A DNA stretch of 64,000 bases from contig NZ_JACYXL010000003.1 in assembly GCF_014842995.1 (NCBI RefSeq), positions 186,001 to 250,000 of the forward strand. Direction: 5' to 3'. The translations under genes were made by a program, and so were the position numbers. This document shows, one piece after another, positions 31,622 through 62,611 of the stretch (positions are counted from its first letter, which is position 1; the number at the start of each line of letters is the position of its first letter). This DNA comes from Rhodanobacter sp. 7MK24 (lineage in GTDB: Bacteria; Pseudomonadota; Gammaproteobacteria; Xanthomonadales; Rhodanobacteraceae). Under the pieces are notes generated by a model, which was given only the letters and a program-made list of their open reading frames with translations, made no database searches and had not been told where the DNA came from.

Positions 31622-34600
31622 CTAGTTGAACCGGTAACGCAGTATCAGCGATGTGGTCCGGGGCGCGGTCAAGGTGTAAGCCATGTAGTTGACGCTTTGC
31701 ACCGCCTGCGTCTGGCTGATCATCTGGCCCGTATCGAAGGTCTGATTGCGGTCATTGATGCCCTGGTGGTCGGTGAGGTTCTGGACCTGCAGATTCAGGC
31801 TGAGCTTGTTCTGGTTGCCGATCTTCCAGTCATAGCCCACGCTGAACCCAAGCGTCCACATCCATGGCAAGCGCATCGAACCACGGCTGTTGGGCACACC
31901 GTCACAGAAGTAGGTATTCGGACCAACGTTGTAGTTCGCAGGAGATGAAGCATCCGGATAACTACCCAGGCAACTGATGGGGGCACCCGAATTCATGCGC
32001 AGGATCGAACCAACATGCAGCCCCTTCAGTCCGTTCTGGAAGTAGTACGCACCCGAAGCGACGAAGGTATTGCGGACGTCATCGGACAGGTTGCCATCCC
32101 CGGCAACCTGGATCTCCGGGTAGTAGAACGCGTATGTCTGCCCGATGTAGCCTGGATCGCGGTGCGACAGATCGAGCAGGCCATCGGTATTGCCGAAGGA
32201 CCTCGCAAACGTGTAGCTGAGATCGAGGTAATAATGCGCAGTCGACGTGGGCTGATGGGTAAGGCCGAGCGTCATGCGGTAATACTTGTGCAGCGGCGGC
32301 TTGATGCCGAGCACGGACGCCGGGATGTCCAACTCCTGCAATCCGCCATTGCCGGCAAAATCACGAATCAGCACCTGGTGGTTGCCGGGATTCACTTCAT
32401 AGCATTGGTGAACCTCGTTGCTCGCAACGTAGTTGGGATATCCATGCGATTGGGCGTATGCCGTAATGGCATCCTCCTCGCAGGTATCCTCGACCAAGCG
32501 CTTCAGATCCGTGAAGCCAAGCACACCCAGCCCGCTCCAGCCATCGGAAAAGGTTTTTTGCGCGTACAAATTTGCAGCGTACTGGTACGGCGCATGGATG
32601 TTCTTCGCACCGATCTGATCTGGCGTGGCCGGCAGTCCGTTGTTCATCAGGAACGTCGGGCCAATTTGCGTCAACCCGGTGGGTGCGTTGTTGCCGTCAC
32701 GCCCGGTGTAGGTATAGAAATTCTCGTACTGCAGTTGCGCCATGCCTATACCGGCATTGAAATTTGCCGGCATGGCGATCGAATACCGTCCAAGGTTCGC
32801 ACCCACCTTGAATGAGCTGTCGCCATCCACGTCCCAGGACACGCCCAGGCGGGGCGTGAAGATGGGCAGGGTCATGACCGGGTCGCCGAGGCCATCGGTG
32901 TAGGTGTTGCTGTCCCACCTGACGCCGCCATACAGCACCACGTTGGTCGACGCCTGCCAGGTATCCTCCACATAGGCGGATTTCCGGTGGCTCCGCACGG
33001 CGAACCACTCGTTGTCGAAATACTGCTCGACATAGTTGCCGTTGGTACTCGACACCGTGGATCCATTGGCCAGCACGGCACCCGGCTGGTCGTAATACAT
33101 GTAGTTGCCGTCGGGCTGGGTTCCCCACTGCCCGGACTGGAAGTCACGGTAATACTCGGCACCGAACTTGATCTTGTTCTCCCCCACCCACCAGTCGAAA
33201 TCAGCCTTGTAGCCGTGCTCGGTCACCATGCTCGGGGAATAGACGAAGAACTGGCTGGTCGGCCCGATGACCGTGGTGACCTGGGTCAGGGGATTGGTCG
33301 AGGAAACGTAGGGCGCGCTGATGCCGCTGTTGCTCGAGGATGGCGTCACGCTGCCTTGCTGGGAATTGCCCACCATCAGATGCATGCTGAAGTTGTCGCT
33401 GATGTCCCACTGGTAATCGCCGATCAGCAGATGGGACCAGTTCTCCGGATGCGACCATCCTGTTGAAGCGCCGATCGACGAGGGGACATAGGGCGTGTTG
33501 AGGGTGTAGTTGGTCGAGAACGAGCTTCCCGAGTCGTGGATGGCCAGCACATCCAGGGTCTGGTTGTTGGTGATGTTCCACGTCAGGTTGAGAAGCTGAT
33601 TGTCATCGCGATTGCTGCTGGTCGAGGCTGAATATCCACCGTATGTAGTGCTTGTAGCGGGAATGGTCTGGCCAAGTTCCGCAAACACGAACAACTTGTC
33701 CTTGATGATCGGGCCCGATGCCCATTCGTACTGGGTGGTCGACGGCGCATAGTGATCCGCCGTGGTGCGGTAGCTGTAGTAATCGCCTATCGAATTGAAC
33801 GTGTTGTGACCGATTGGCATCAACAGGGCAGACGTAGGGGGCGTGAAATACATCGAATAGCCGGCCCGGAAGGTGTTGTCGCCCTGGCGCACGGTGGAGG
33901 CAAGGATGCCACCCGTCGTGTTCGACCAGGATGCATCAAAGTTGCCGTCTATCGTATTCGTGCTGCCGATGGCCTCGGCCGGTATGTTGAAGCTGCCGAT
34001 GTTGGTACTGTTGTTCGTCGCATCGAATCCGTTGACGTAAAAACGGTTTTCGGCCGATGTCGCGCCGTTCATCTCGATGCTTCCGGTGGTTTGCGAATCG
34101 TATGTGGTGTTCGAGTTGAGCAACGCAATGCTTTCCGCGCTTCGTCCCGTGGGCAAATCATTGACCAGGTCCATGCTGTAGTGACTGATGAGCTGCGACG
34201 TGCTCACGTCGATCGGACTGATGTCGAATTTCTGCTTCTCAGGCGCTTCGGTTGCGCTGACTTGCACTGCTCCGAGGTTCGTGGCCGACTTTTCTCCGCC
34301 GACCGGTGCAGTTGCGGACGAAGCCACCGAGGCGGGCGACATCATGCCCGCACGCACGACCACGGTAGCCCTTCCGACCACGGCCCCGCTTTTGAGCAAC
34401 TCAACGCTGTACGAGCCGGGATTCAGCGCATTGATCATGAATTGACCGTTGGCGCCCGGTGCCACAGTGCGCTGCACACCCGTCGTCGCGGATTGGATAT
34501 GGATGGTTTCGCCTGCCGCTGCCTGCCCGTATATGCCACCGGTCACGGATTGTGCAGAGGCGACTCCCGAGGCTCCAAGTGCAAGCATCACAGCAAGCGT

Positions 34601-34657
34601 CAGTGAAACGCGCTCGCCTGTTCCCTGTCGACCCGATGTCTTCATTGCCTTGCGCAT
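31622..34657 (-). CDS. Oar-like TonB-dependent receptor 1
   Basis: The ATG at 34657 lies 7 nt after a near-perfect AAGGAGGT, so longer upstream starts are rejected. The 1011-residue protein has a signal peptide (LTLAVMLALGASGVASA). A carboxypeptidase-regulatory-like domain (GGIYGQAAAGETIHIQSATTGVQRTVAPGANGQFMINAL, about 35-110) precedes a plug-like region with DVSTSQLISHYSMDLVNDLPTGRSAESIALL. A large beta-barrel rich in aromatic/Asn strands ends in TTSLILRYRFN. This Oar/OmpA-like layout imports or binds large oligomers; here oligosaccharides from the surrounding locus are likely. No partner SusD exists, as is usual outside Bacteroidota. Confidence 0.9.
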   Translation of the reverse strand: MRKAMKTSGRQGTGERVSLTLAVMLALGASGVASAQSVTGGIYGQAAAGETIHIQSATTGVQRTVAPGANGQFMINALNPGSYSVELLKSGAVVGRATVVVRAGMMSPASVASSATAPVGGEKSATNLGAVQVSATEAPEKQKFDISPIDVSTSQLISHYSMDLVNDLPTGRSAESIALLNSNTTYDSQTTGSIEMNGATSAENRFYVNGFDATNNSTNIGSFNIPAEAIGSTNTIDGNFDASWSNTTGGILASTVRQGDNTFRAGYSMYFTPPTSALLMPIGHNTFNSIGDYYSYRTTADHYAPSTTQYEWASGPIIKDKLFVFAELGQTIPATSTTYGGYSASTSSNRDDNQLLNLTWNITNNQTLDVLAIHDSGSSFSTNYTLNTPYVPSSIGASTGWSHPENWSHLLIGDYQWDISDNFSMHLMVGNSQQGSVTPSSSNSGISAPYVSSTNPLTQVTTVIGPTSQFFVYSPSMVTEHGYKADFDWWVGENKIKFGAEYYRDFQSGQWGTQPDGNYMYYDQPGAVLANGSTVSSTNGNYVEQYFDNEWFAVRSHRKSAYVEDTWQASTNVVLYGGVRWDSNTYTDGLGDPVMTLPIFTPRLGVSWDVDGDSSFKVGANLGRYSIAMPANFNAGIGMAQLQYENFYTYTGRDGNNAPTGLTQIGPTFLMNNGLPATPDQIGAKNIHAPYQYAANLYAQKTFSDGWSGLGVLGFTDLKRLVEDTCEEDAITAYAQSHGYPNYVASNEVHQCYEVNPGNHQVLIRDFAGNGGLQELDIPASVLGIKPPLHKYYRMTLGLTHQPTSTAHYYLDLSYTFARSFGNTDGLLDLSHRDPGYIGQTYAFYYPEIQVAGDGNLSDDVRNTFVASGAYYFQNGLKGLHVGSILRMNSGAPISCLGSYPDASSPANYNVGPNTYFCDGVPNSRGSMRLPWMWTLGFSVGYDWKIGNQNKLSLNLQVQNLTDHQGINDRNQTFDTGQMISQTQAVQSVNYMAYTLTAPRTTSLILRYRFN

Positions 34658-34664
34658 GCTCATC

Positions 34665-34672
34665 ACCTCCTT
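34665..34672 (-). promoter_or_regulatory. Strong Shine-Dalgarno that fixes the TonB receptor 1 start
   Basis: On the minus strand AAGGAGGT lies 7 nt before the ATG at 34657. It is an almost complete anti-16S match and overrules several upstream in-frame start codons reaching to 34798. Confidence 0.85.
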
Positions 34673-35154
34673 CAAAGAAAAGTCGAAAAGCGCCGATTGC
34701 TCCCACTGCCAGAAAAGAAACATGGGCATCAGCACGGGCATCAGGACAACTTCCGCAAGCGGGTGAACCTGCTTGCTATCTCGATCAAGCGCCAGCACCT
34801 CACCCGACTACCGCCATAGACGGAGGTAGCGTCTTTGGTGACGTGCTCAACGTGCGCGTTTGCCAAGCGCATGCCCGGGTTCTCGCATCCAGTGGGCTGG
34901 CGAGATCAGACACAGCCTGGTTCCGCAGATTCAGGGGCACGCTTTGCTTTGCGAGTGGCATCTCACTCGACGTGGACGACTCTCTCGGACAGACAGCCTT
35001 CACAGCTCCCCAGAGGAACATCTGAAATTGCCACGACACCCTCCCCTACCGCGCATCCGACGGCCCAGTGGCCTGATCGGCAACTATCGGATCGATTGGA
35101 TGTTGCGGTCACTCCACTCAAGTGACCGCAAGCCACGAATGAAAATGTAAGCAT
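34673..35154 (-). other. Long 5' leader of TonB receptor 1 (no gene)
   Basis: From the candidate promoter at 35155-35183 to the receptor ATG is about 490 nt. No convincing coding frame with a start signal was found in it on either strand. It begins with an 11-bp hairpin (35103-35131). The rest shows no motif I recognise. Confidence 0.4.
35103..35131 (-). promoter_or_regulatory. 11-bp hairpin or dyad at the head of the leader
   Basis: TTGCGGTCACT (35103-35113) and AGTGACCGCAA (35121-35131) are perfect inverted copies with a 7-nt loop. It would be transcribed directly after the candidate start site, so it could be a 5' stabilising stem or a second operator. Confidence 0.5.
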
Positions 35155-35183
35155 AAAATACTACATATACTTACGTTTTGTAA
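35155..35183 (-). promoter_or_regulatory. Candidate sigma-70 promoter for TonB receptor 1
   Basis: On the minus strand TTACAA (plus 35178-35183) is followed after exactly 17 bp by TATTTT (plus 35155-35160). The region is strongly AT-rich compared with its surroundings and overlaps an operator-like dyad. Confidence 0.55.
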
Positions 35184-35294: not shown

Positions 35295-37289
35295 TCAAGG
35301 TGCCGGGCACATCCTGTCGACATGGATCGGCAGGCCTAGTGCAATCGCGTGATCGCGCGCACCAGCCGCCTGCTGCACCGCCAGCGCCGCAGCCGGCAGC
35401 GTTATCAGATGAGTGAAGTTGGGCGACCACACTTTGGTGGGGCCGGCGTTGTGCGGTTTCCCTGCGTCATCCGTCCAGTTGCCGGTAATGCGCAGGTGGC
35501 CGCTCCACGAGGCCCACGCACTTATCCAGGCGCCCAGCACCACGTTGCGTTCCACGTCGAAATACGTACTGTGCTCGTCGAGATAGATGCCGTTGCCTTC
35601 GCCGCTGTGGCGCATATCGGTGACGTTGCGAACCACGCACGAGGTACCTGGCGTCGATTGCGCCTGCGTGTAGATCGCGCCGCCGTCGGCCAGCTGCAGC
35701 ATCACGCGTTCGATGCGGTTGGCCACGATGTGGATGGACGACTGCACCGGCGCCTCGCCTTCGTAATCCCAGCCCCAGCCCACCGAGATGCCGCTGTACG
35801 GCAGGTCGCTGATGGTGTTGTGCGCGATGACGAGGCCGTTGACGAAGCCGGCCATGATCGCCACGTTGTCGCGGTAGGCCAGCGCCACATGGTCGATGTG
35901 GTTGTCGGCGATCACGATGTCGGAGGTCTTGCTGGCCGGGTCGACGGGGTGCCCCTCTGTATCGCCCGCGAACACGCCGCCACCGCCGATGTCGGTGAAG
36001 CGGGAGTTCGTCACCGCCGCGCCGTGCGTGTCGCCCGCCAGGGCGATGCCTGCCGCCGCAAGATGCTGGAAGCTGTCGCGATCGAACACGATGTCGCGGC
36101 CGGCCTCCACGGCCACCGCGCTGCCGATGCGCGTCATGCCCTCGCCATTGTCGGGCAGCGCAGCGCGGCTGTTTCCGTCGACCAGATAGCCCGCCTGCAG
36201 CGGCACATAGCCATCGGCGGATGCCGGCTTGCGCCATTCAGTGCCGACGAAGGTGATGCCGCTGAACATCAGGTCGTGCACCGGCGCCTTGAGGGTCCCG
36301 TTCAATACCAGCAGCTGTTCGAGCACGGGCAGCTCGATGGACGGCGCATGCGCGGCTTCAGCGGGCAGCGGCCGATAGCGCAGCACGTGGTGCGCCGTAT
36401 CCACCGTATAGCCACCGGGGGCGGACGGATCGCCGGCAAGGTTTTCGAACCAGTCCACGCCGGCGTAGTACTTGCCCACGGGGCTGGCCACCGACCAACC
36501 GTTCTTGGCCGAGTCCAGCGTGGCGTTGTGCCAGCACGGCTGCGCCAGGTCGACACGGCCCTGTCCCAGCGCAACCACGCTGCAGCGGAAATCGCGCCAG
36601 CGCTCGTGCATCACCGCCAGCGAGCCCACCTGCAGGCTGTGCAGGATCGCCGGCGGCACGTTCGACAAGCCCTTCGCATCCACCACGCAATGCGGGCAGG
36701 CTTCGGTGCGCGACGGCCAGCGGCGCTGGCCGTCAATGTAGATGCTCGACGGCGCTGCGTCAGACGGCAGAGTAAAGCTCCACAACACTCCATCACGCGC
36801 ACCCTGCACCAGCCGGCTGCCGGACAGCAGCGGATGTGCGCCCGGCGCGGCCTGCCAGTGCACCGGATGGCCGTCTGCGCCGCTGTCCGAGGCATCGAAT
36901 TGCAAGGGCTGTTGCAGGCGATAGGTGCCGTCCTGCAATTGAACGGTGATGTCATTGCGGCCTTGGGCACGCAACGTGCGTACCCGCGCCTGCGCGGACT
37001 GCAGCGTGCAAGGTGATGACGCATCGCAGGTGCCGTTGGCCGTCCCCCCAGGCGCGACGTGCAGGGTTTGCGCATGGGATGCGAGCGGCAACAACAACAA
37101 CGCAGCAAACGCAAGTCCGTGACGCAAAGCCCCTCTCCCCTCGGGAGAGGGGTTGGGAATGAGGGTTCGGGTACACCGCTGCGCCTCGCTTCGACCGAAC
37201 CCTCTCCCGGCTGTTGCCACCCTCTCCCGGAGGGAGAGGGATTCACTCGGCGACGTTTGCGTAAACGACATGAACTCATCCAAATGCAT
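35295..37289 (-). CDS. Right-handed parallel beta-helix glycosidase-like protein (GH141-like)
   Basis: The mature part begins QTLHVAPGGTANGTCDASSPCTLQSAQARVR. DGTYRLQQPLQFDASDSGADGHPVHWQAAPGA then resembles GH141/GH120-type beta-helix enzymes, and repeated beta-helix coils run from about residue 340 to 620 (for example DIVIADNHIDHVALAYRDNVAIMAG). GH141 includes alpha-L-fucosidases and xylanases; specificity here is unknown. The reading frame opens at an ATG at 37289, but the first 50 codons are palindromic repeat sequence, and the signal peptide (HGLAFAALLLLPLASHA) lies after them. The true start may be a TTG near 37125. It follows GH89 copy 1 by 27 bp. Confidence 0.7.
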   Translation of the reverse strand: MHLDEFMSFTQTSPSESLSLRERVATAGRGFGRSEAQRCTRTLIPNPSPEGRGALRHGLAFAALLLLPLASHAQTLHVAPGGTANGTCDASSPCTLQSAQARVRTLRAQGRNDITVQLQDGTYRLQQPLQFDASDSGADGHPVHWQAAPGAHPLLSGSRLVQGARDGVLWSFTLPSDAAPSSIYIDGQRRWPSRTEACPHCVVDAKGLSNVPPAILHSLQVGSLAVMHERWRDFRCSVVALGQGRVDLAQPCWHNATLDSAKNGWSVASPVGKYYAGVDWFENLAGDPSAPGGYTVDTAHHVLRYRPLPAEAAHAPSIELPVLEQLLVLNGTLKAPVHDLMFSGITFVGTEWRKPASADGYVPLQAGYLVDGNSRAALPDNGEGMTRIGSAVAVEAGRDIVFDRDSFQHLAAAGIALAGDTHGAAVTNSRFTDIGGGGVFAGDTEGHPVDPASKTSDIVIADNHIDHVALAYRDNVAIMAGFVNGLVIAHNTISDLPYSGISVGWGWDYEGEAPVQSSIHIVANRIERVMLQLADGGAIYTQAQSTPGTSCVVRNVTDMRHSGEGNGIYLDEHSTYFDVERNVVLGAWISAWASWSGHLRITGNWTDDAGKPHNAGPTKVWSPNFTHLITLPAAALAVQQAAGARDHAIALGLPIHVDRMCPAP
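37131..37240. repeat. Inverted pair of family A palindromes at the 5' end of the beta-helix gene
   Basis: One copy (37131-37170) reads CCCCTCTCCCC TC GGGAGAGGGG followed by TTGGGAATGAGGG. The other (37199-37240) is in opposite orientation and ends CCTCTCCCGGAGGGAGAGGG. The open frame of the beta-helix gene runs through both. Confidence 0.65.
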
Positions 37290-37316: not shown

Positions 37317-39530
37317 TCACGGCTTGCATAGCCCCAGCCGCTGCGTCACTTCGGTCGCCAGCTGCCACGGGTCGCCCTGCGGCGTGGCCGGCTCCTCCTC
37401 ATGCGAGACCGCCCACGCATGCTCCATCGCGTACCAGTCGATCTTTTCCGGCGGCTTGCCCGTGGCCAGCGACTGCTCGAGCGAAGCGAAGAAACGCCGC
37501 CAGCGCGGCTCGTACAAACCGCTCACCAGGCCGGACAGTTCGCGGTTGGCGTAGTCGTGCAGGCCACCCATGTCGGCGCCTTCGCGTTCGCCCCACACGG
37601 TGATGATCGCGCGCTGGTCGTAAACGAACTGCGCCGCTTCGGCCTCGTTGCCCGCCTCCGCGCGTGCCGGCGCGAGCCAGTTGCCGAGCAGGAAGTCCGG
37701 ATCGCTGGCGAGCAGGCGGTCAAGCAAGGCCATGTCGCCCAGCCATTCGGTATCGAGTGCATGCAGACGGGCGGCATCCTTCGCAGCGTAGGCCGCCTCG
37801 ATCTGCGGCAGCAGCACGCGGGCACGGTTGGCCAGTGTCTGTCGCGCCACGTCCACCACGTCGTGGTGGTAGGCGCTGGTGTCGCGCAGCGCCGGTGCCA
37901 CCTGCAGCAGTTCGCAGATGGCCTGCGCGAAATGTCCGGCGTCGTAGCGCATCGCCCTGGGCGACCAGCTCGCCGCCGTGGACACGTCCTGCGAGGGACG
38001 CGCCTCGAACAGGCTGTCCTGCGGCTCCGAGTCGCCGTCGGATGGCATTGCGTAGGCGGTTTCGGCGAGGATGCGCCACGCGGCTTCGGCATGCGCGTCG
38101 GCGCCGCCGTAGCGGCTATCGGCATACATCTTGAACCATGATGATTCTTCGTACCATTCGGAGCCATCGCTCGGTGGATGCGACCATGCCAGCGCGGTGA
38201 ACAGCGCGAACGCCGCCGGATCGATGCCGCTGGCCTCGGGCATCCAGGCGATACCGCGCAGCTTGCTGCCGGGCTTGCTTTGCCACGCGGCGAAGCGTCT
38301 GAACCACACGTCCGCATTCGCGCCCAGCGTGGTATGGCCGCCGAAGTTGGGGATGCTGCCGAAGGCGTACGGCGCGCCGTGCCAGTCCTTCTCGCGGTCC
38401 AGCCCGTCGTAGCGATCCGACAGACCGTCGACGATCAACAGACGTTGACGGTCTACCGCATCAATCACCGCCGGCAATGGGTTGTGCTGCCAGCCCAGCA
38501 TTACCCAGCGTGCGCCCGGATGCGCGGCCTGCAGCGCGGCCATCACGCCGCGCGCGGCATCCGCCACCGGCACGTTGCCGGCGCGGCCGCCTTCGTGCAG
38601 CAGATCCATCTTGTACATCGAGCTGTCGCCGAACAGCGCACGCTGCTGGCGGTAGAAATCCGCCGCAACCTTCGCGTAGAGCGGATCGCGCGGGTCGAGC
38701 CAGTCGGGGCGTGTGAAGCCCACCCACCTGCCCTGCGGCACCACGTTTGCGCCTGGATGCTTCGCCACGAAGTCCGGCGGCACGGTGCCGAACCAGCCGG
38801 GGAACACCGGCGTGATGCCCAGCTCGCGCAGGCGCGCCACGATCTTCTGTGCAAGCGCCACGCGACGTGCGTACTGTTGCGGCGACAGCGGCGCGTCGAA
38901 GCCGGACATGTTCTGCAGCAGCCACCACGGCTGGTGCGCGGTGGCGGGGATCCACGCGCGCATCGCCGCATCGCTGTAGCCGAAATCCTGGAAGGTGCGG
39001 CGATACACTTCCTCCGTGCCAATCGGCATGAACACTTCGTCGATGCCATGCAAGGCGAGCAGATCGATCTTGTGCTCCCACGCCGGCCAAGCCAGGTAGG
39101 CATTCGAATAGCCATCGTCGGTGTCGTTGAGCGCATAACGGTCTGGCACCACGGCGCGATGCTCGATGGGCGACGCCGGCGCGGGCAGCGTGGCCGGCAA
39201 GCGCGCAAGGCTGTCACCCGGCCAACCGATGTCGACGTGCGCTGCCTGCTGCAAATAGGTTTCCACGCCGGTGAGGATGACTGCTGGTGAGGTACCCGCT
39301 ACCACGATATGGCCCGGCGTGCCGCGGACCTCGAAGCGATCCGCGCCTTGGCCACGATCCAGCGCAACCAGGGCGAACTGCGCCTGTTGCTTCGGCAGCA
39401 AGCGCAGCAGGGCCGCGCGTGCAGGCGCGATGTCAAAGGCAGGCTTTGCCGGCTCGCCTGCGAAGGCGACAGGCATGCCGGTACCGACCAGCAGCAGGCA
39501 CACCAGCCATCGTTGCAGTGCTCGTTTCAT
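37317..39530 (-). CDS. GH89 alpha-N-acetylglucosaminidase (copy 1)
   Basis: The ATG at 39530 overlaps the TGA of the GH1 gene (ATGA), and the frame upstream of it is only a shadow of GH1. The 737-residue protein has a signal peptide (WLVCLLLVGTGMPVAFA). The three NAGLU-type regions follow: an N-terminal domain (RGTPGHIVVAGTSPAVILTGVETYL), a barrel (LAWPAWEHKIDLLALHGIDEVFMPIGTEEV, YKMDLLHEGGRAG, GIAWMPEASGID) and a C-terminal helical domain. The Glu residues in LLHEGG and WMPEASG occupy plausible catalytic positions. GH89 removes terminal alpha-linked GlcNAc, as found on mucin core caps and heparan-type chains. It is likely periplasmic. Confidence 0.88.
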   Translation of the reverse strand: MKRALQRWLVCLLLVGTGMPVAFAGEPAKPAFDIAPARAALLRLLPKQQAQFALVALDRGQGADRFEVRGTPGHIVVAGTSPAVILTGVETYLQQAAHVDIGWPGDSLARLPATLPAPASPIEHRAVVPDRYALNDTDDGYSNAYLAWPAWEHKIDLLALHGIDEVFMPIGTEEVYRRTFQDFGYSDAAMRAWIPATAHQPWWLLQNMSGFDAPLSPQQYARRVALAQKIVARLRELGITPVFPGWFGTVPPDFVAKHPGANVVPQGRWVGFTRPDWLDPRDPLYAKVAADFYRQQRALFGDSSMYKMDLLHEGGRAGNVPVADAARGVMAALQAAHPGARWVMLGWQHNPLPAVIDAVDRQRLLIVDGLSDRYDGLDREKDWHGAPYAFGSIPNFGGHTTLGANADVWFRRFAAWQSKPGSKLRGIAWMPEASGIDPAAFALFTALAWSHPPSDGSEWYEESSWFKMYADSRYGGADAHAEAAWRILAETAYAMPSDGDSEPQDSLFEARPSQDVSTAASWSPRAMRYDAGHFAQAICELLQVAPALRDTSAYHHDVVDVARQTLANRARVLLPQIEAAYAAKDAARLHALDTEWLGDMALLDRLLASDPDFLLGNWLAPARAEAGNEAEAAQFVYDQRAIITVWGEREGADMGGLHDYANRELSGLVSGLYEPRWRRFFASLEQSLATGKPPEKIDWYAMEHAWAVSHEEEPATPQGDPWQLATEVTQRLGLCKP

Positions 39531-46224: not shown

Positions 46225-46259
46225 GATCTGCACACTCCTCAGTTTTTTTGCGATCGCGC

Positions 46260-48603: not shown

Positions 48604-48719
48604 GCAGGCGCTCCCATGCCGGCTCGGCACCTGCGCCATGAAAGGTGCCAGCGTGGCCGTGCTCGCGTGAAGGGGGAATACAGGCTCGACATGCCGCGCA
48701 CACTCCGCATCAGGGAAGC

Positions 48720-56200: not shown

Positions 56201-56275
56201 CATGGATGCCAGAAGCAGACCCAGTGCCGATGCCAAACTGGTCTGTCGTAGCAAAACGCTTCTGCCGGATTTCAT
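53249..56275 (-). CDS. Oar-like TonB-dependent receptor 2
   Basis: The ATG at 56275 follows GAGGGG by 6 nt. The 1008-residue protein has a signal peptide (ASALGLLLASMAAHGQ). An N-terminal regulatory-like domain includes SSIFGHVPVQAGESVMVSNGSGLTRTVGVDSQGRYNANQLPIGTYTVSLM. The plug region includes DVSSVDSRTVLTADQLAKLPLGHTAEAVALLAP and the NAYYLNGFNTTDPNIAEGG block shared with Oar proteins. The long barrel ends in YVRFGVTYDY. It is related to receptor 1 in architecture but diverged in sequence, suggesting a different ligand. Its place directly after the sugar kinases and before the GH36-like and GH89 genes points to uptake of GalNAc/GlcNAc-containing oligosaccharides. Confidence 0.9.
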   Translation of the reverse strand: MKSGRSVLLRQTSLASALGLLLASMAAHGQSTTSSIFGHVPVQAGESVMVSNGSGLTRTVGVDSQGRYNANQLPIGTYTVSLMLDGKTIQQRANVLLKVGVGSEVSFSEEAAAASATNAKQLSGVSVSANALPPIDVSSVDSRTVLTADQLAKLPLGHTAEAVALLAPAANLGAGGAASTTGEPLISFGGSSSTENAYYLNGFNTTDPNIAEGGITLPYGSIDQEEVYTGGYSAQYGRSDGGVLNMIGKSGTNDWHFGGQFLYEPSSMVGSQNNVDYANGLPPSPVAGRLYQPNSKNDYWSSVYDLYVGGPIIKDKLFFFASAEMTNTQGNTVNSVEAGTDSHYKDKLPKWYAKVNWNITDSNLLELTGASEKSEDSGTVYNYDYNNLTDTSFKSYANNTKHGGDLWLAKYTGYITDKLTLTAMYGSMKTRSYSENPAYDPSETYIAGYTYENPALNGGNPITNNQNVSDITNPGQNFVTTNLRVALTYALGDHTITAGIDNLRTAARDQDELTSGPGYYWGYGYTNTPNQPLVPALGVGALSNYPNGSSGYYVSKNIFNQGGNLFSTERAEYIEDQWQFNDRLLFSIGLRDDGFTNTNASALAYMRQTKPQWAPRLGFSWDVFGDSSFKVFGNAGRYYLGSPIAPGDPANGYVSTQQYFTYSGISSSGTPTGLTQVSVPVSADGAYGQTPDPRTMTVTSLKAMDQDEFMLGFQKTAGPSWVYGAKLTRRILRHIIDDYCDAAAVVAKAATEGITDVNNATCYYINPGEANTFAVQDPTGAFHSVTMSNADMGFPHAVRRYYGLDTFLEHPFDGKWYAKIDYTFSRSYGNSEGEGQSDIKAIGGTQNVDWDFPPLMVYANGPQGNDHTNVIKAYGYYAVTPEWLVSANLNLTSGGPKYCLGYYGPNGSDPVGYGSLYHWCNGQPSPPGAQGRLPWVKQLDLGVHYRPAFADHKLSFSVDVFNVFNGQAPLNLSPELNTSSSTTYSALYGTPLVLQQPRYVRFGVTYDY

Positions 56276-56401
56276 GATTGCCCCTCTCATAGGATCGCCT
56301 TACATGTGGATAGTCGCGAGCCGCTGCACTCCCCGCGCTCGCTAACTGTTCAAACGCCGATGGCTCATCCTCATCGGCAAGCTGGCTGGCTCCGTCTATG
56401 C

Positions 56402-57334
56402 TCAGCGTGTCCATTCCCTCACTTGGATCCGGCCGAGCAATGCCTCGACCTGATCCGGACGTACGTAACCCGTTTCCACATCCATAGCGTTGGCGGCACC
56501 GCAGGCCACCGCGAGGCGCAGCGCCTCGCGCAAGGGCTCGCCGCGCGCAAGCGCCACCGCCATGCCGGCCAGGAAGCAATCGCCCGAACCGACGGTGTTG
56601 CGCACCTGCTCCAGCTCCACCGCGGCATGCCACGCACCGCTGTCGTCCATGCCCACGGCGCCCAGCGCGCCAAGGCTCAATACCGGCATCGCCACGCCAC
56701 GCGCATGGAGTTCGCGCAGCGCGACAACCGCAGCGTCGACGCTGTCGATGGCGCGGCCGAACAAGGCCTCGGCTTCGTCGCGGTTCGGCTTCAACAGGAA
56801 GGGCCGCGCCGCCACCGCCTGCTTCAATACTTCGCCGCTGGCGTCGATCAGGCAGCGCTTGCCGGCGGCGCGTACCTGCTGCGCCAGTTCGGCATAGGTG
56901 CCAGCGGCCAGGCCACGCGGCAGGCTGCCGGAGATCACCACCAGATCGCTTTCTTCCAGCGCACGACGGAAGGCACGCTGCAAGGCCGCGTTGTCGCGCT
57001 CGCCCAGCTCCGGCCCCTGCCCCAGCACTTCGGTGATCTGCCCGTGCGCGTCCTGCAATGCGATGCAATGGCGCAACGGCGCGTCGATCTCCACGCCGTG
57101 GAACAGCACCCCACGTTCGCTCATGCGGCGTGCGGTGAGATTGCGGTGCGCGGCGTCGATCAAGCCGATCAGCTGCACGGGCTCGCGCAATGCGGCGACG
57201 GTCTGCGCTACGTGCAAGCCCTTGCCGCCCGGCAGCACCTGCTCGTGCACCGTGCGATTGACTTCGCCGACGCGCAGTTCGCTCACCTGCATCAGGTGGT
57301 CGATGGCGGTGTTGATGCCGAGTACGGCAATCAC
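56402..57334 (-). CDS. PfkB-family phosphofructo/tagatose-6-phosphate kinase
   Basis: The 310-residue protein has the LacC/FruK arrangement. IAVLGINTAIDHLMQV at the start, LPGGKGLHVAQTVAAL (substrate-binding glycines), VVISGSLPRGL, FLLKPNRDEAEALFG and NTVGSGDCFLAGMAVAL (anion hole and catalytic Asp) are all present. Next to AgaS and a class I aldolase, phosphorylation of tagatose-6-phosphate to the 1,6-bisphosphate is the expected job, though 1-phosphofructokinase activity cannot be excluded by sequence. It overlaps the upstream kinase gene by 4 bp (ATGA). Confidence 0.88.
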   Translation of the reverse strand: MIAVLGINTAIDHLMQVSELRVGEVNRTVHEQVLPGGKGLHVAQTVAALREPVQLIGLIDAAHRNLTARRMSERGVLFHGVEIDAPLRHCIALQDAHGQITEVLGQGPELGERDNAALQRAFRRALEESDLVVISGSLPRGLAAGTYAELAQQVRAAGKRCLIDASGEVLKQAVAARPFLLKPNRDEAEALFGRAIDSVDAAVVALRELHARGVAMPVLSLGALGAVGMDDSGAWHAAVELEQVRNTVGSGDCFLAGMAVALARGEPLREALRLAVACGAANAMDVETGYVRPDQVEALLGRIQVREWTR

Positions 57335-58257
57335 GGCGCGGACTCCAGCAGAGCTTCCAGCTCGCCCGCATCGGCCTGTCGCGCCGTGCCGCCCACGCCA
57401 CGCGTGGAAAGCGCGCCACAGGCGTTACCCCAGCGCATGGCGTCAACCAGCGGACGACCGCACAGCCACGCGTGCAGGAAGCCGGCATCGAAGGAATCGC
57501 CGGCACCGGTGCTGTCCACCGCACTCACTTTGAATGCCGGCGATTCGAGCAGGTCGCCCGCGTGACCCAGCGTGGCGCAACCGTATCGACCGAGCTTCAC
57601 CACGATGCGGGTGCGACCATTGTCCAGCGCACGCAAGCCATCAAGCGGCGAAACGCAGCCGCTGATACCTGCAAGCTCCTTGTCATTGGGCAGGAACAGA
57701 TCGACCTCGGCGAGCAGGCCTAGCCATTCGTTGCCCCAGCGCTGTTCGGGATCGAAGCCCGGGTCGAGCGAAGTGCTCAATCCCTGCGCACGTGCGCGCG
57801 CGAACAAGGCCTTCAGATCCGGCCGCAGCGCACCCTGCAGGTAATACGACGATACGTGCAGGTGATCGGCGCCTGCCAGCAGTGCATCTTCGATGTCATC
57901 GGCGCGCAACGCGCCAATGGCGCCGGCGAAGGTCACCAGCGCGCGATCGCTGTGCGTGGAAAACGATGCGGTGATGCCGGTGCGCAGCGCGGGATCGCGT
58001 TGCACCGCAGTCACGTCGATGCCGGCGTTCTGCAGCGCCGACACGCAGAAATCGCCCCAGCCGTCCGCCCCCGTCCTGCCGGCGAAGGTGACCTTGCCGC
58101 CCAACCGCGCCAGCCCCATCGCGCAGATCATCGAGGAGCTGCCCGGCACGACCTGCGCGTCCTCGGCCAGTACTTCGTGCCCAGGCGCAGGAAACGACTG
58201 GCAGTCCCGGAACACCAGGTCGACATTGAGTTCGCCGGCGACGAGGATGCGCTTCAC
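57331..58257 (-). CDS. PfkB-family sugar kinase (candidate GalNAc kinase)
   Basis: The 308-residue protein opens ILVAGELNVDLVFRDCQSFPAPGHEVLAED, a ribokinase-like start. VVPGSSSMICAMGLARLGGKVTFAGRTGADGWGD follows, and the catalytic block SAVDSTGAGDSFDAGFLHAWL ends the fold. It is distinct from the FruK-type kinase encoded next to it. Since sugars enter without a visible PTS, a free amino sugar or hexose must be phosphorylated; this enzyme is the only spare kinase in the operon and so is the candidate GalNAc (or GlcNAc/galactose) kinase. That assignment is by context. Its ATG overlaps the AgaS stop and its own stop overlaps the next start. Confidence 0.82.
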   Translation of the reverse strand: MKRILVAGELNVDLVFRDCQSFPAPGHEVLAEDAQVVPGSSSMICAMGLARLGGKVTFAGRTGADGWGDFCVSALQNAGIDVTAVQRDPALRTGITASFSTHSDRALVTFAGAIGALRADDIEDALLAGADHLHVSSYYLQGALRPDLKALFARARAQGLSTSLDPGFDPEQRWGNEWLGLLAEVDLFLPNDKELAGISGCVSPLDGLRALDNGRTRIVVKLGRYGCATLGHAGDLLESPAFKVSAVDSTGAGDSFDAGFLHAWLCGRPLVDAMRWGNACGALSTRGVGGTARQADAGELEALLESAP

Positions 58258-59465
58258 GCATTGCCTCCCGCGTGCAACGCGAAGGCTTCGACCACGCGGG
58301 TGAGCACGCCTTGCGAGGGCGTGTCCGGCTTGCCGCCCAGCGCCAGGCAGCGGAAGAACGCCAGCACCTGCCCCACGGCCACGTCGGCGAGCAGCGGCAG
58401 CGCGTCGTCGCTGGCCTGCAGGCCCTGCAGATCCACCACCACGTCCTGCGCACCGATCACGTCGTCGGCAATGCCCTCGCCAACCAGCACGCGCACCGTG
58501 CCCAGCTGCTTGCGGGTGAGTTCGCGCAGCAAGTCGTATTCATAGGCCCGCACCGCCGGATCGGGCGAGAGATAAGCCACCACGAGGGTGTTCCCGTCGA
58601 GGCTGGACATCGGACCGTGGCGCAGGCCGAGGAAAGTTTCGGCCATCGTGATGACCTTGCCGCCGGTCATTTCCAGCATCTTCAGTGCGGCCTCGCGCGC
58701 GGCGCCCAGCGCGCCGCCACTGCCGAGGTACACGGCCTGCTCGAAGTTGCGATGGGCGACGGCCGCCAGCGCAGCGGACTGGTGATCGAACACGTGCTGC
58801 ACGCAATCGGCGAGGCGTTTCACGCCGTCCTGCCATTCGGCGGTATCGGCGCGACCGCCCAGGGCGCTGCCGGACAACACCAGGTTGGTGAAGCTGCTGG
58901 TCATCACCAGACTGCGGTCATTGGTACGCTCGTCCAGCACCAGCGTCGTGTAATGCGGCGAACTCTCATACTGCGTGGCGAGCTTGCCGTTGGCGTTGCA
59001 GGTGATGGCGAGATGGCTCCAGTCCGGCGCGTGCGCCAGCAACTGGTCCACCACGGCGGAGCTTTCCGGGCTGTCGCCCGAGCGTGCGATCGAGATCAGC
59101 AGGCCACCGCCCGGCGGCAGCGCCCTGCGATGCGTGAGCAGGGTGCCTGCGGGAATCGCCAGCACCGGCACGCCCAGCGTCTGCTGCAGATCCGGAGCTA
59201 TGCATTCGCCGGCATAGATCGAACTGCCCGAACCAGTCAGCACGACGTGCGCAGGGCGCGGCGTCAGCGCGGCCTGCAATTGCGCGCGTATCGAGGGCTC
59301 GCGCAACAGCAACGCCGTGGCTTGCCAGGTCGCCGGTTGCTGCAGGATTTCGCGCAGGGTATCGGCATAGCCGCGCTCGCGCTGCATCGCCGGAGCAGCA
59401 GCCTTCAATGCGGCAAAACTGTCGATTTCTTTCGTTTTGGTTTCGAGTATTGACATTTGACTCAT
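58254..59465 (-). CDS. agaS: AgaS: galactosamine-6-phosphate deaminase/isomerase (double SIS domain)
   Basis: About 403 residues from the ATG at 59465; alternatives at 59486 and 59456 are in frame and none has a strong Shine-Dalgarno. The first SIS domain has VVLTGSGSSIYAGECIAPDL and LLISIARSGDSPESSAVVDQLL. The middle has ITCNANGKLATQYES and SLVMTSSFTNLVLS. The second SIS domain has AVYLGSGGALGAAREAALKMLEMTGGKVITMAETFLGLRHGP. This pattern closely follows E. coli AgaS, which converts GalN-6-phosphate to tagatose-6-phosphate and ammonia in the cytoplasm. It heads a three-gene coupled operon with two kinases and diverges from the aldolase gene. Confidence 0.92.
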   Translation of the reverse strand: MSQMSILETKTKEIDSFAALKAAAPAMQRERGYADTLREILQQPATWQATALLLREPSIRAQLQAALTPRPAHVVLTGSGSSIYAGECIAPDLQQTLGVPVLAIPAGTLLTHRRALPPGGGLLISIARSGDSPESSAVVDQLLAHAPDWSHLAITCNANGKLATQYESSPHYTTLVLDERTNDRSLVMTSSFTNLVLSGSALGGRADTAEWQDGVKRLADCVQHVFDHQSAALAAVAHRNFEQAVYLGSGGALGAAREAALKMLEMTGGKVITMAETFLGLRHGPMSSLDGNTLVVAYLSPDPAVRAYEYDLLRELTRKQLGTVRVLVGEGIADDVIGAQDVVVDLQGLQASDDALPLLADVAVGQVLAFFRCLALGGKPDTPSQGVLTRVVEAFALHAGGNA

Positions 59466-59478
59466 TTCGTCCGAATGT
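59425..59478 (+). promoter_or_regulatory. Candidate AgaR box and -35 element for the divergent aga operons
   Basis: CTTTCGTTTTGGTTTCG within 59429-59446 resembles the repeated CTTTC/GTTTC pattern bound by AgaR in enterics. TTGACA (59450-59455) directly follows and is spaced 17 bp from GAATGT (59473-59478), a poor -10. CATTTCG (59463-59469) and CGAAATG (59509-59515) also form a widely spaced dyad. The box would lie inside the first codons of agaS. Confidence 0.4.
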
Positions 59479-59512
59479 GAAGCCATTCGTCCACCAGCCC
59501 AGCGTATTCGAA

Positions 59513-60430
59513 ATGAATCAGAACTTACAAGTCCCTTCGCAAGCTTCCGAAAAGTTTTCGAAATTGCCGCTCTCGCATGGCAAGCGCACGCGCCTGTGGC
59601 GCCTTCTGTACGGCTCCGGCCCGAAGAACGGCAGCCTGCTGGTGCTGCCGCTGGACCAGGGCCTCGAGCACGGCCCTACCGATTTCTTTCCCCACCCGCC
59701 CGCCGTGGATCCCAGCTACCAATTCGAGATGGCCGCGGCGGGCGGCTTTTCTGCCATCGCGCTGGGCATCGGCCTGGCCGAGAAGTACATGACCGAGTAC
59801 TGCGGCCGCGTGCCGCTGATCCTCAAGCTCAACGGCAAGACCAACATCCCCAGCGACGCCGAGGCCACCTCGCCGCTGTTCGCCTCGGTGGAGGACGCCG
59901 TGCGCCTGGGCGCCGAGGCGGTGGGCTACACCATGTACGTGGGCTCGCCGCGCCAGGGTGACGAGTTCCACCAGTTCGAGAAGGTACGCCAGGATTGCGA
60001 ACGCTACGGCATGCCGCTGGTGGTGTGGTCGTACCCGCGCGGCAGCGCGGTCAATGCCAAGGGCGGCACCAATACGCTGTACGCGCAGGACTACGCTGCG
60101 CGCGTGGCGCTGGAAATGGGCGCCGACCTCGTGAAGCTGCACGAGCCGAACGACAGCGTGGCCAACGTGCCGGCGCCCTACGACAAGTTGCAGGAAGATT
60201 CCGCTGCCCGTTGCGCCCGCGTGGTGCGTTCGGCCGGCCGCACCATGGTGCTGTTCTCCGGCGGCGAGAAGAACGACGACGATGCGGCGGTGCTGCGCAA
60301 GGTGGAGCACTACATGCAGAGCGGCGCCACCGGCGTGATGTTCGGCCGCAACATGTGGCTGCGCCCGTTCGATCAGGCGGTTGCCCTGGTTCGCCAGGTG
60401 CACGGCATCATGGCAAAGTACCCGCGCTGA
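59513..60430 (+). CDS. Class I (DhnA-type) aldolase, candidate tagatose-1,6-bisphosphate aldolase
   Basis: The ATG at 59513 gives 305 residues, without a signal peptide. The fold is the DhnA/FbaB-type class I aldolase: VLPLDQGLEHGPTDFFPHPP, ILKLNGKTNIPSD, VGSPRQGDEFHQFEKVRQDCERYGMPLVVWSYPRG, DLVKLHEPND with the Schiff-base Lys candidate, and GVMFGRNMWLRPFDQAVAL. Cleavage of tagatose- or fructose-1,6-bisphosphate to triose phosphates would complete the pathway that starts with AgaS and the FruK-like kinase. It is divergent from agaS and precedes the amidohydrolase and regulator genes. Confidence 0.88.
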   Translation: MNQNLQVPSQASEKFSKLPLSHGKRTRLWRLLYGSGPKNGSLLVLPLDQGLEHGPTDFFPHPPAVDPSYQFEMAAAGGFSAIALGIGLAEKYMTEYCGRVPLILKLNGKTNIPSDAEATSPLFASVEDAVRLGAEAVGYTMYVGSPRQGDEFHQFEKVRQDCERYGMPLVVWSYPRGSAVNAKGGTNTLYAQDYAARVALEMGADLVKLHEPNDSVANVPAPYDKLQEDSAARCARVVRSAGRTMVLFSGGEKNDDDAAVLRKVEHYMQSGATGVMFGRNMWLRPFDQAVALVRQVHGIMAKYPR

Positions 60431-60437
60431 CGCCTGC

Positions 60438-60573: not shown

Positions 60574-60581
60574 GAAAAACG

Positions 60582-61799
60582 ATGACCCACCAGAAAGCCT
60601 GCCTCTGCTGCGCCCCGCCCACCGGCGCCGGCACCGTGCGCATCGAGAACAGCAGCAAGAACCCGCTGCAGACCGCGCGCGACGACAGCAAGGGCGAGTT
60701 GCGCCTGAAGGATTTCAAGCCGCGCAGCATGCTGCGCGTGCCACAGACGCGCATCGAGCGCCCGCGCTTCCCGGTGATCGACGTGCACGCGCACCTGACC
60801 TGGTCGAAGAACGTACGCAGCGGCGTCTCGGTAGGCGATGAAATCACCGTGTTCACCACGCCGGAAGAACTGCTGCCGGTGATGGACCGCAAGGGCGTGC
60901 GCACGCTGGTGAACCTCACCGGTGGTGTCGGCAAGGGCCTGGAGGAAAGCATCCGTTTGTTCGACCAGGCTGCCCCGGGGCGCTTCCTCACCCTCACTGA
61001 ACCCTCGTTCGCGCTGTTCCCCGAGGCGGACTATCCGCAACGCCAGGCCGACGCCATCGCGCACGCGCACCGCATCGGCGCCCGCGGCCTGAAGCTGCTG
61101 AAGACGCTGGGCCTGTACCTGCGCGAACGCATCGACGAAGGCCCGCTGGTGGGCGTGGACGACCGCCGCTTCGACCCGATGTGGGAAACCTGCGCCGCGT
61201 ATGACATGCCGGTGTTCCTGCACGTCTCCGACCCCGAGGCCTTCTTCCTCCCCACGGACGGCGAGAACGAGCGCTACGAGGAACTGGCCAACCACCCGGA
61301 CTGGTCGTTCTACGGTCCCGAGTTCCCCAGCCACCAGGAACTGATCGCCGCGCGCGACCGCATGATCGCGCGCCACCCGAAAACCACTTTCGTGCTGCTG
61401 CACGTGGGCAACAACGCCGAAAACCTCGCCGCCGTCGAGTCCTGCCTGGAGCGTTTCCCCAATACTCTGGTGGACATCAGCGCGCGCATCGGCGAACTGG
61501 GGCGCCAGCCGCGCATCGCGCAGCGCTTCTTCGACCGCTACCAGGATCGCATCCTGTTCGGTACCGACGCGGTGCCCTCGCCCTGGGGCGACGATGTGCC
61601 GCAGCAGCTGTTCGGCGACGCGCTGTACGAGATCTACTACCGTTTCCTCGAAACCGAGGACGAATACTTCGATTACGCCCCCGCTGACGTGCCCCCGCAG
61701 GGGCGCTGGTCGATCTACGGCTTGAAGCTGCCGGACACCGTGCTGCGCAAGGTCTATCATGACAACGCCGCCCGACTCCTGCATATTGCTGCCGAATGA
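60582..61799 (+). CDS. Amidohydrolase-superfamily (Amidohydro_2-type) enzyme
   Basis: The ATG at 60582 gives 405 residues. After a 60-residue N-terminal extension with a CLCC cluster, the metal-binding HxH is His69/His71 in VIDVHAHL. PVFLHVSDPEAFF, TTFVLLHVGNNAENL and ILFGTDAVPSPWGDD supply the later ligands of an Amidohydro_2 barrel. Relatives are decarboxylases, lactonases and deacylases. No NagA/AgaA-type deacetylase is seen in the window, so this protein is a context-based candidate for removing the acetyl group of GalNAc-6-phosphate, or it may act on another released moiety. Its stop overlaps the regulator start (ATGA). Confidence 0.75.
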   Translation: MTHQKACLCCAPPTGAGTVRIENSSKNPLQTARDDSKGELRLKDFKPRSMLRVPQTRIERPRFPVIDVHAHLTWSKNVRSGVSVGDEITVFTTPEELLPVMDRKGVRTLVNLTGGVGKGLEESIRLFDQAAPGRFLTLTEPSFALFPEADYPQRQADAIAHAHRIGARGLKLLKTLGLYLRERIDEGPLVGVDDRRFDPMWETCAAYDMPVFLHVSDPEAFFLPTDGENERYEELANHPDWSFYGPEFPSHQELIAARDRMIARHPKTTFVLLHVGNNAENLAAVESCLERFPNTLVDISARIGELGRQPRIAQRFFDRYQDRILFGTDAVPSPWGDDVPQQLFGDALYEIYYRFLETEDEYFDYAPADVPPQGRWSIYGLKLPDTVLRKVYHDNAARLLHIAAE

Positions 61800-62611
61800 G
61801 CAAAGCCCAGACCACCAGACCCGCCGCCAAACCCCGCCATCGCCTGCTGCTCGGCGAGCGCCGCCGCCTGATCGTTGAGCACGTGGAAGAGCAAGGCCGC
61901 GCCACGGTGGAGGAGCTGGCGAAGAAGTTCCACACCTCCGCCGTCACCATCCGCGCCGACCTCGAAGCCCTGGCGAATGCCTCGGCCATCGTGCGCTCGC
62001 ATGGCGGCGCGCTGCCGGTAGTGCCGGTCAGCAGCGACATCCCGCTCAACATCAAGGAAACCCGCCACCACGCGCAGAAGCTGCGCATCGGCCAGGCGGC
62101 GGCGGCGATGATCCGCGACGGCGAGACCATCATCCTCGACTCCGGCTCCACCACGGTGGAGATCGCGCGGCAGATCCGCCAGCGCCGCTTCGAATCGCTC
62201 ACCGTCATCACCAATGCGCTGAACATCGCGCTGGAGCTGTCTGGCCAGCCGTCGATACGCGTGATGATGCTGGGCGGCCTGCTGCGCCAGACCTCCTATT
62301 CGCTGGTCGGCCCCGACGCGGAGCATGCACTGGCCAAGCTTTCCGCCGACCGCCTGTTCCTCGGCGTGGACGGCCTCGATCCCGAGGTGGGCGTGACCAC
62401 GCCCGATCCGCTGGAATCCGCGCTCAACGCCTTGATGATACGCGTGGCGCGGCAGACCGTGGCCGTGTGCGACTCCAGCAAACTGGGCCAGCGCAGCCTG
62501 TCGGTGATCGCGCCGGTGCGCCTCGTGCACAAGGTGCTCAGTGACGCCGGTGCGCCGGCGGAAGTCGTCGAAGCGCTGCGCAACGCCGGGGTGCAGGTCG
62601 AACTGGTCTGA
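61796..62611 (+). CDS. agaR: DeoR-family regulator, AgaR-like
   Basis: The 271-residue protein has a DeoR winged helix (RRRLIVEHVEEQGRATVEELAKKFHTSAVTIRADLEALANASAIVRSHGGALP, about 20-75). The sugar-phosphate-sensing domain follows (IILDSGSTTVEIARQIR, LTVITNALNIALELS, VMMLGGLLRQTSYSLVGPDAEHAL, DRLFLGVDGLDPEVGVTTPD). The last block is close to AgaR of GalNAc pathways. It is coupled to the amidohydrolase by a 4-bp overlap. It likely represses the divergent agaS and aldolase operons, with a GalN- or tagatose-phosphate as inducer. Confidence 0.85.
   Translation: MSKAQTTRPAAKPRHRLLLGERRRLIVEHVEEQGRATVEELAKKFHTSAVTIRADLEALANASAIVRSHGGALPVVPVSSDIPLNIKETRHHAQKLRIGQAAAAMIRDGETIILDSGSTTVEIARQIRQRRFESLTVITNALNIALELSGQPSIRVMMLGGLLRQTSYSLVGPDAEHALAKLSADRLFLGVDGLDPEVGVTTPDPLESALNALMIRVARQTVAVCDSSKLGQRSLSVIAPVRLVHKVLSDAGAPAEVVEALRNAGVQVELV

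Follow-up and report, generated by a model that had tools for sequence, protein, structure and literature searches.

Among described systems for the use of N-acetylgalactosamine (GalNAc), two come closest to the locus considered here. In the Shewanella-type Aga pathway, a permease and a kinase take the place of the phosphotransferase system (PMC2996990). In the Bacteroides thetaiotaomicron polysaccharide utilization locus (PUL) BT4240-50, the corresponding enzymes belong to GH2, GH109 and the APH family, the kinase acting at O1, and a SusD-like protein is present (PMC11992087). The known GalNAc-6-phosphate (GalNAc-6-P) deacetylase is an Amidohydro_1 protein (PMC1431709). Here we consider a 64,000-nucleotide stretch of Rhodanobacter sp. 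7MK24 (below, the window; part of contig C31 of a 4.15 Mb genome), in which genes of the aga type adjoin many glycoside hydrolase (GH) genes. We think that this is probably a glycan-scavenging locus built round a GalNAc core, with the PF04909 (Amidohydro_2) amidohydrolase AmH as the deacetylase and the ribokinase-like protein PfkB2 as the kinase.

Gene neighbourhoods were compared around the gene for the GH36-like enzyme, whose nearest named relatives are from Rhodanobacter sp. DHG33 (95% identity) and DHB23 (93%). The comparison covered 80 named loci, the best of 269 relatives, with flanks of up to 10 kb per side. Many of these loci are limited by contig ends or flank length, so that absences are soft, and the paralogues GH35a/b, GH89a/b and TBDR1/2 cross-match in the counts. 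AgaS is near the GH36-like gene in 48 of the 80 loci. Around it, the same order recurs across Rhodanobacteraceae: AgaR, AmH and aldolase, then, divergently, AgaS, PfkB1/PfkB2, often a TonB receptor, the GH36-like gene and often GH35. Of the 48 AgaS loci, 45 have PfkB2 nearby, 44 PfkB1, 40 the aldolase, 39 AmH, 36 AgaR, 33 GH35 and 26 a TBDR1/TBDR2-like receptor. The counts for the other genes are much lower (phosphoesterase 10, GH89 9, GH79 8, GH29 6, GH141 4, GH1 3, GH3 1). By best match over all 80 loci, GH89a was found in none, GH3 in one (L027), GH89b in nine and GH35b in 46. On these counts the core order is conserved, whereas the GH89/GH79/GH29/GH141/GH1 cassette is variable. The original prediction had joined a GalNAc-type catabolic core to glycosidases, and this is supported by the recurring order. 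It had also treated 31 kb as one unit and proposed a comparison of gene order across relatives; that comparison retains the core, but the cassette genes are near few of the AgaS loci, and the single conserved unit has to be given up.

The assignment of AmH comes mainly from its distribution in 197 Rhodanobacteraceae genomes, which were searched with each protein. AmH matched in 76 genomes at E 0.001, and the removal of six partial matches (33-37% identity) left 70, including one with a fragment at a contig edge (G187) and one with the gene split in two pieces (G124). The cut-offs for AgaS (E 1e-80) and PfkB2 (E 1e-50) gave 71 and 68 genomes, respectively. AgaS and AmH occur together in 69 genomes, AmH without AgaS is found in G087 (86% complete), and all 68 PfkB2 genomes fall within the 70 with AmH. 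The two AgaS genomes without AmH, G172 and G179, have no PfkB2 match either. In G179, AgaS, AgaZ, a NagA-type deacetylase, a ROK kinase, a TonB receptor, GH20, GH36-like and GH35 genes form a row (L031, L156). In G172, contig C19 carries the same run up to the GH36-like gene (L158), with AgaS just beyond that stretch, and contig C23 a second AgaS locus with AgaR, GH36-like and GH35 genes and no AmH (L157). The NagA-type deacetylases of these loci exceed the TIGR00221 cut-off. A NagA-type gene of this kind is present in three of the 197 genomes, the third being G131, where NagA-type, GH35, AgaZ, ROK and AgaS genes lie in a row next to an open reading frame (ORF) that by eye resembles a sugar porter; the AgaS of G131 is below the 1e-80 threshold. 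Neither AmH nor PfkB2 was matched in any of the three genomes. Among the AgaS genomes (71 plus G131), AmH and the NagA-type gene are thus distributed 69 to 3 without overlap (Fisher 1.7e-5, uncorrected for kinship). A TIGR00221 search of ten genomes found one NagA in each of seven AmH genomes, two each in G172 and G179, and in G131 only the aga-locus copy.

The aldolase exchange appears to be a separate matter, because AgaZ occurs together with AmH and PfkB in Acidobacteriota. What is left in G172, G179 and G131 is an exchange of AmH and PfkB2 for a NagA-type protein and a ROK kinase, and if kinase replaces kinase, AmH replaces the deacetylase. The NagA-type set is still accompanied by a GH36-like gene in G172 and G179, and by GH35 in G179 and G131. 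The sugar set free is thus likely to be the same one, an acetylated galacto-sugar. Judged by this distribution, AmH is probably a non-NagA GalNAc(-6-phosphate) deacetylase and PfkB2 a GalNAc kinase.

Relatives of AmH also occur in Acidobacteriota. With an AmH alignment (A2, E 1e-60), matches were obtained in 87 of the 200 genomes of the class to which the acidobacterial locus L071 belongs, but in just three of 398 from the window's phylum. Two of these three are Rhodanobacteraceae; the third (G515) has no other island gene nearby except GH1. We fetched 40 AmH loci, 39 chosen stretches of the L071 class and the one from G515; the N-terminus was not readable in five, and a NagA query (from G000) matched none of the 40 at E 0.001. 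In one clade of 13 loci (clade A: L134, which is the L071 locus, and L136-L147), a PfkB2-like kinase is near AmH in 12 and AgaS in 11 (31-46% identity, leaving out that of L134), together with AgaR in eight, AgaZ in seven, GH36-like in five and GH35 in two; neither PfkB1 nor the class I aldolase is near in any. Two loci, L137 and L138, combine AmH, PfkB, AgaS, AgaZ, AgaR, GH36-like and GH35 genes, and sugar porters were found by family search in L137, L139 and L144. A second group (L117-L133, L135) is closer in sequence to the Rhodanobacteraceae AmH, and has PfkB2 near in none of 18 loci and AgaS in six; all 15 readable N-termini look exported by eye. In a third group (L148-L154), AgaS is near in none of seven loci. 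Counting L071/L134 once, PfkB2 is near 48 of 50 cytosolic-looking AmH genes and none of 24 exported-looking ones. The cytosolic members of the family are therefore those tied to the kinase and to AgaS. In four loci of the second group (L117-L120), AgaS lies close to an AmH relative that looks exported; L117, L118 and L120 also have an AgaR-like gene, and none of the four has a PfkB2 or GH36-like match nearby.

The two kinds of AmH also differ at two positions. D298 and S300 are present in 51 of 51 cytosolic rows of the alignment, but in only four and none, respectively, of 24 exported-looking rows, where residue 298 is mostly E and residue 300 always G or A. In a midpoint-rooted tree of 75 AmH rows, the Rhodanobacteraceae clade is nested among the Acidobacteriota forms that look exported, and clade A falls outside them. 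On this account we considered whether AmH had joined the aga module twice independently; this was not upheld, as a single clade of the two cytosolic groups was not rejected (p-AU, from the approximately unbiased test, 0.225 with A_L071 left out). The protein has an amidohydrolase-2 fold, and H69, H71, H214, H265, H274 and D329, candidate metal ligands, are invariant in 27 sequences; a sugar deacetylase activity of this PF04909 protein is putative. Most Rhodanobacteraceae rows have an N-terminal cysteine cluster, C-x-CC-(A/S)PP (CLCCAPP here, window 60582-60640), which is missing from the two acidobacterial rows of the alignment and lies in a disordered part of the AmH model.

The GH36-like enzyme was not recognized by Pfam (no match at E 0.001) or by a single-sequence search of the PDB (none at E 0.1). 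A profile of 42 family members matched alpha-galactosidases weakly (6lcj, E 8e-4); PF02065 (Melibiase) was found in only three of the 42 (best E 0.021) and Melibiase_C in five (best E 0.0063). The AlphaFold (AF2) model, with a predicted local distance difference test (pLDDT) score of 91, indicates a GH36-type fold: the 25 top Foldseek rows are galactosaminidase or alpha-galactosidase entries, with GH97 next. By E-value, the best match is Flavonifractor plautii FpGalactosaminidase (8x1b, 6.5e-25), but its TM-scores are 0.42-0.44 (13% identity), compared to about 0.6 for canonical GH36-type alpha-galactosidases. In FpGalactosaminidase, residues W317, D346, D347, W387, K461 and D463 form a patch in common with alpha-galactosidase (PMC11762096). 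D322, D323, W363, K417 and D419 of the present protein are invariant in the 42 sequences, as is W359; the DD-to-W spacing (41) is equal in both enzymes and the K-x-D is kept, whereas W317 has no equally spaced partner and patch B (Y464, C513, D532) is not matched. The agreement, which is one of motif and spacing rather than of superposed structures, fits an enzyme for galacto-configured alpha-glycosides, without telling galactose, GalNAc and galactosamine (GalN) apart. The gene is present in 88 of the 197 Rhodanobacteraceae genomes, and by record title its family reaches beyond Proteobacteria into Acidobacteria, Gemmatimonadetes, Verrucomicrobiota and Lentisphaerae. The loci of Paraburkholderia, of Trinickia and of some Gemmatimonadetes have GH35 near the GH36-like gene and no AgaS in reach. 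A strict link of this enzyme to GalNAc was considered and is weakened by the 19 of 88 genomes that carry it without AgaS.

Several observations weigh against the proposed reading of the locus. The AmH model has a pLDDT of just 78. Its fold neighbours are decarboxylases, hydratases, a lactonase-type hydrolase, dihydroorotases, allantoinases and uncharacterised amidohydrolases, and no sugar deacetylase is among the 50 PDB fold matches listed. The family as a whole is not tied to phosphorylated sugars and is wider than GalNAc-6-P, because the exported-looking relatives are without PfkB2 near in 24 of 24 cases. The AgaS matches of L143-L145 are just 31-33% identical. The G172 and G179 loci are 81-89% identical in protein and may represent one event or transfer, several genes change together in them so that the AmH-NagA pairing rests on elimination, and the absence of AmH is weaker evidence in G131, which is just 87% complete. 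As for the GH36-like gene, besides the 19 genomes in which it occurs without AgaS, two of 71 have AgaS without it. Finally, the window's genome carries an unlinked NagA on contig C22. GalNAc catabolism could proceed with this NagA deacetylating GalNAc-6-P and AmH doing something else, for example hydrolysing a lactone or taking off some other acyl group. TIGR00221 matches in all ten genomes tested and the resemblance of the AmH fold to ACMSD, LigJ and 2-pyrone-4,6-dicarboxylate hydrolase would agree with such a division of labour, as would the report that E. coli nagA substitutes for agaA (PMC12118421). However, G172 and G179 retain the first NagA and yet have an additional NagA within an aga locus that lacks AmH, and AmH tracks AgaS in 69 of 71 genomes and in 11 of the 13 clade A loci. 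We consider this explanation unlikely, but not so much as the following one. The sugar might be GalN, either freed in deacetylated form or deacetylated outside the cell by AmH relatives, with a GH36-like enzyme that acts on GalN like the Flavonifractor galactosaminidase and no cytosolic GalNAc-6-P step. The top fold match by E-value is indeed a GalN galactosaminidase, exported-looking AmH relatives exist and have AgaS near in six of 18 loci of their group, and the absence of AgaA has been taken as a sign of GalN use (PMC5583593). Nevertheless, the NagA-type and ROK-type genes in the three relatives that are missing AmH and PfkB2 point to an acetylated sugar, and the N-termini of Rhodanobacteraceae AmH have no clear signal sequence by eye, which makes a GalN route rather improbable.

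The glycan target is harder to name. GH79, GH29, GH141-like, GH95-like, GH2, GH35, GH88 and PF05426 proteins, all present in the island, would suit uronate- and fucose-rich glycans of plants or fungi. The cassette might be a variable addition for a heteropolysaccharide of plant or fungal origin (arabinogalactan protein, or a fungal wall rich in glucuronic acid and fucose), with the GalNAc core merely as its neighbour. In keeping with this, most core loci showed none of the cassette genes nearby, and no well-supported common operator was found. GH89, on the other hand, fits alpha-GlcNAc glycans, and GH89 together with GH29 suits animal-type O-glycans; two GH89 genes are present. Moreover, the cassette genes are codirectional with those of the core and mostly tightly spaced (with two gaps, of 781 and 496 bases), and some of them accompany the core again in Rhodanobacter DHB23 (L004), DHG33 (L068) and PCA2 (L006) and in Fulvimonas R45 (L008). 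We regard a separate plant or fungal cassette as a substantial possibility, though short of an even one, and mucin or arabinogalactan protein as substrate is a guess. Sulfoglycolysis loci also carry a DeoR regulator, a PfkB kinase and a class I aldolase; this alternative was set aside, since AgaS, and in relatives AgaZ and a NagA-type gene, occupy the loci in question.

A joint AgaR operator for core and glycosidase genes was also sought, and the searches gave it no real support. In an alignment of 41 sequences of the divergent region between AgaS and the aldolase, a box close to TTTCATTTCGAATAC is for the most part conserved; allowing up to three mismatches, it has two matches in the window (the aga region and position 1880) against 0.31 expected. 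The element AAAACGAAAG, with at most one mismatch, has three (the aga region, 23976 and 35170-35179), and six of 100 shuffles give as many. A direct-repeat scan returned no site in the window, the aga region included, and was thus without power. The match AAAACGTAAG at 35170-35179, between GH141 and TBDR2 and upstream of the latter, is one mismatch from the element of the aga divergent region, which makes it a lead for TBDR2, no more. In the divergent start region of DUF4861 and GH88, GAAAGTTTCAAAAGTTATTGAAACTTTTTGAAACT (20473-20507) looks like a separate operator and is unlike the aga region.

Returning to the GalNAc reading, oligosaccharides would enter through the Oar-like TonB receptors and be trimmed by glycosidases that are presumably exported, with GH35 taking off beta-linked galactose and the GH36-like enzyme freeing alpha-linked GalNAc (or GalN). 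Some carrier would then pass the sugar through the inner membrane, PfkB2 would phosphorylate it, and AmH, although from another Pfam family than NagA, would strip off the acetyl group, either ahead of the phosphorylation or following it. AgaS may yield tagatose-6-phosphate, from which PfkB1 and the class I aldolase would complete the route to triose phosphates, with AgaR as the likely repressor. From gene content, synteny, co-distribution, the fold of the GH36-like model, the invariant residues of AmH and the NagA-for-AmH swap, all of which are observed, we infer the substrates, the enzymatic steps and the export of the glycosidases. It seems to us evenly balanced whether AmH represents a second class of GalNAc(-6-phosphate) deacetylase besides NagA which, together with a PfkB-type GalNAc kinase and a Pfam-invisible GH36-like enzyme releasing alpha-linked GalNAc or GalN, defines a route common to Rhodanobacteraceae and Acidobacteriota, with neither committed enzyme being the textbook one. 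If so, annotation that relies on NagA-type AgaA as a marker of GalNAc use, as in PMC5583593, would be misleading for many members of the Rhodanobacteraceae and Acidobacteriota, the PF04909 family would gain a deacetylase, and the GH36-like family would have a testable substrate.

The genes named in the original prediction were all found at about the positions given there (Table 1), by Pfam, NCBIfam and PDB searches or, for the GH36-like enzyme, chiefly by fold, with some corrections. The aldolase, AmH and AgaR genes are on the plus strand, divergent from AgaS; GH89b is present, but starts near 39,530 rather than at the ORF start of 40,937; and the gene set does not end at 31.6 kb on the left, but runs on to 17.3 kb. 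In Rhodanobacter sp. PCA2, GH88, DUF4861 and GH35 genes come after GH79, GH29 and GH141, and this is the only one of the 80 loci with GH88 or DUF4861 in reach. The aldolase start was set by sequence inspection, and the real start of AgaS may be internal to its ORF. The BT_1002-like beta-helix protein is one that we take to belong to GH141. A SusC/SusD pair and sulfatases had been said to be absent, and the scanned proteins indeed included no SusD and no sulfatase match, both receptors being Oar-like. The TPR-sulfotransferase gene adjoins TBDR2, though no sulfatase was matched. As for the claimed route from uptake to triose phosphates, the catabolic core is supported, but no inner-membrane importer was found in the island: no permease family matched among the scanned island proteins, and major facilitator superfamily genes of the window are at 5.1 and 8.0 kb. 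AgaA/NagA is also absent from the cluster, the only NagA match being that on C22, so that the route is complete only if AmH or this unlinked NagA deacetylates. AgaS is below its family cut-off with clear PDB matches; PfkB1 exceeds TIGR03168 but not LacC (151.9 vs 409.55 bits), the DhnA-type aldolase is below equivalog cut-offs, and the AgaR-like regulator is just under its own. Elsewhere, a BlaR1-type M56 peptidase is fused to a TonB C-terminal domain (window 2314-3531), and just past the window end a 3268-amino-acid ORF with a long signal-like N-terminus (L002:3856-13662, plus strand) possibly encodes a large surface protein.

Table 1. Genes of the island, by position in the window, with the matches behind each label
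Feature	Position	Strand	Matches and remarks
AgaR-like DeoR regulator	61796..62611	+	NF040755 257 bits (cut-off 260), PF00455; 4-base overlap with AmH
AmH, PF04909 amidohydrolase, proposed GalNAc(-6-P) deacetylase	60582..61799	+	PF04909 E 6e-26
DhnA-type class I aldolase, proposed tagatose/fructose bisphosphate aldolase	59513..60430	+	PF01791; NF006704 222 bits (cut-off 277); PDB 1ojx E 5e-49
AgaS-family protein, proposed GalN-6-P deaminase/isomerase	58254..59486	-	TIGR02815 265.6 bits (cut-off 529.2); PDB 3odp E 2e-52, 3c3j E 6e-50
PfkB2, ribokinase-like kinase, proposed GalNAc kinase	57331..58257	-	PF00294; 0 of 22 NCBIfam matches reach cut-off
PfkB1, hexose/tagatose-6-phosphate kinase type	56402..57334	-	TIGR03168 277 bits (above cut-off 216.4)
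TBDR1, Oar-like TonB receptor	53249..56290	-	PF25183, PF07715
GH36-like enzyme, proposed exported alpha-GalNAc/GalN-releasing glycosidase	51063..53126	-	AlphaFold model and Foldseek
GH89a	48720..51050	-	NAGLU domains
GH3	46384..48639	-	PF00933, PF01915
GH79 beta-glucuronidase type	44773..46233	-	PDB 5g0m E 4.5e-60, 3vny E about 5e-60; no Pfam match at 0.001
GH29 alpha-L-fucosidase type	42240..43991	-	PF01120 E 2.6e-71; PDB matches
Purple acid phosphatase-like phosphoesterase	41013..42233	-	PF00149, PF16656
GH1 beta-glucosidase type	39527..40996	-	TIGR03356 506.6 bits (above cut-off 478.5); twin-arginine-like N-terminus by eye
GH89b	37317..39530	-	NAGLU domains; start by inspection
GH141-like beta-helix enzyme	35295..37289	-	homologous to BT_1002, PDB 5mqp E 3.1e-33
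TBDR2, Oar-like TonB receptor	31622..34798	-	PF25183
TPR-sulfotransferase	29847..31466	-	PF13469 and TPR
GH2	27193..29697	-	PF02836 and others
GH35a	25294..27162	-	PF01301
GH95-like protein	22793..25132	+	PF22124 E 9e-12
PF05426 alginate-lyase-family protein	21732..22793	+	PF05426 E 2.4e-28; PDB 8bdq just E 0.003
GH88	20560..21735	+	PF07470
DUF4861 protein	19237..20532	-	PF16153
GH35b	17348..19240	-	PF01301; synteny with GH36-like gene

Literature searches, in which subscription journals were thinly covered, returned no paper describing a PF04909 GalNAc deacetylase or the present locus. With the Shewanella-type pathway (TonB-type receptor, AgaP, AgaK, AgaA-II and AgaS, as outlined in PMC2996990), the locus has in common an outer-membrane receptor and AgaS in a proteobacterial GalNAc set. 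Unlike there, AmH seems to occupy the slot of AgaA and PfkB2 that of AgaK, glycosidases are attached, and no AgaP was found. BT4240-50 is similar in that a beta-1,3-galactosidase, an alpha-GalNAcase and a GalNAc kinase are encoded in one locus (PMC11992087), but the present genes encode GH35 and GH36-like enzymes, a PfkB kinase, AgaS and Oar-like receptors instead. OngB, an amino-sugar deacetylase of the amidohydrolase superfamily, is assigned in PMC12017989 to subtype V; its Cys/His/His site differs from the residues conserved in AmH. AmH and NagA/AgaA likewise have the superfamily in common and would fill the same slot of the pathway, one as an Amidohydro_2 and the other as an Amidohydro_1 protein.

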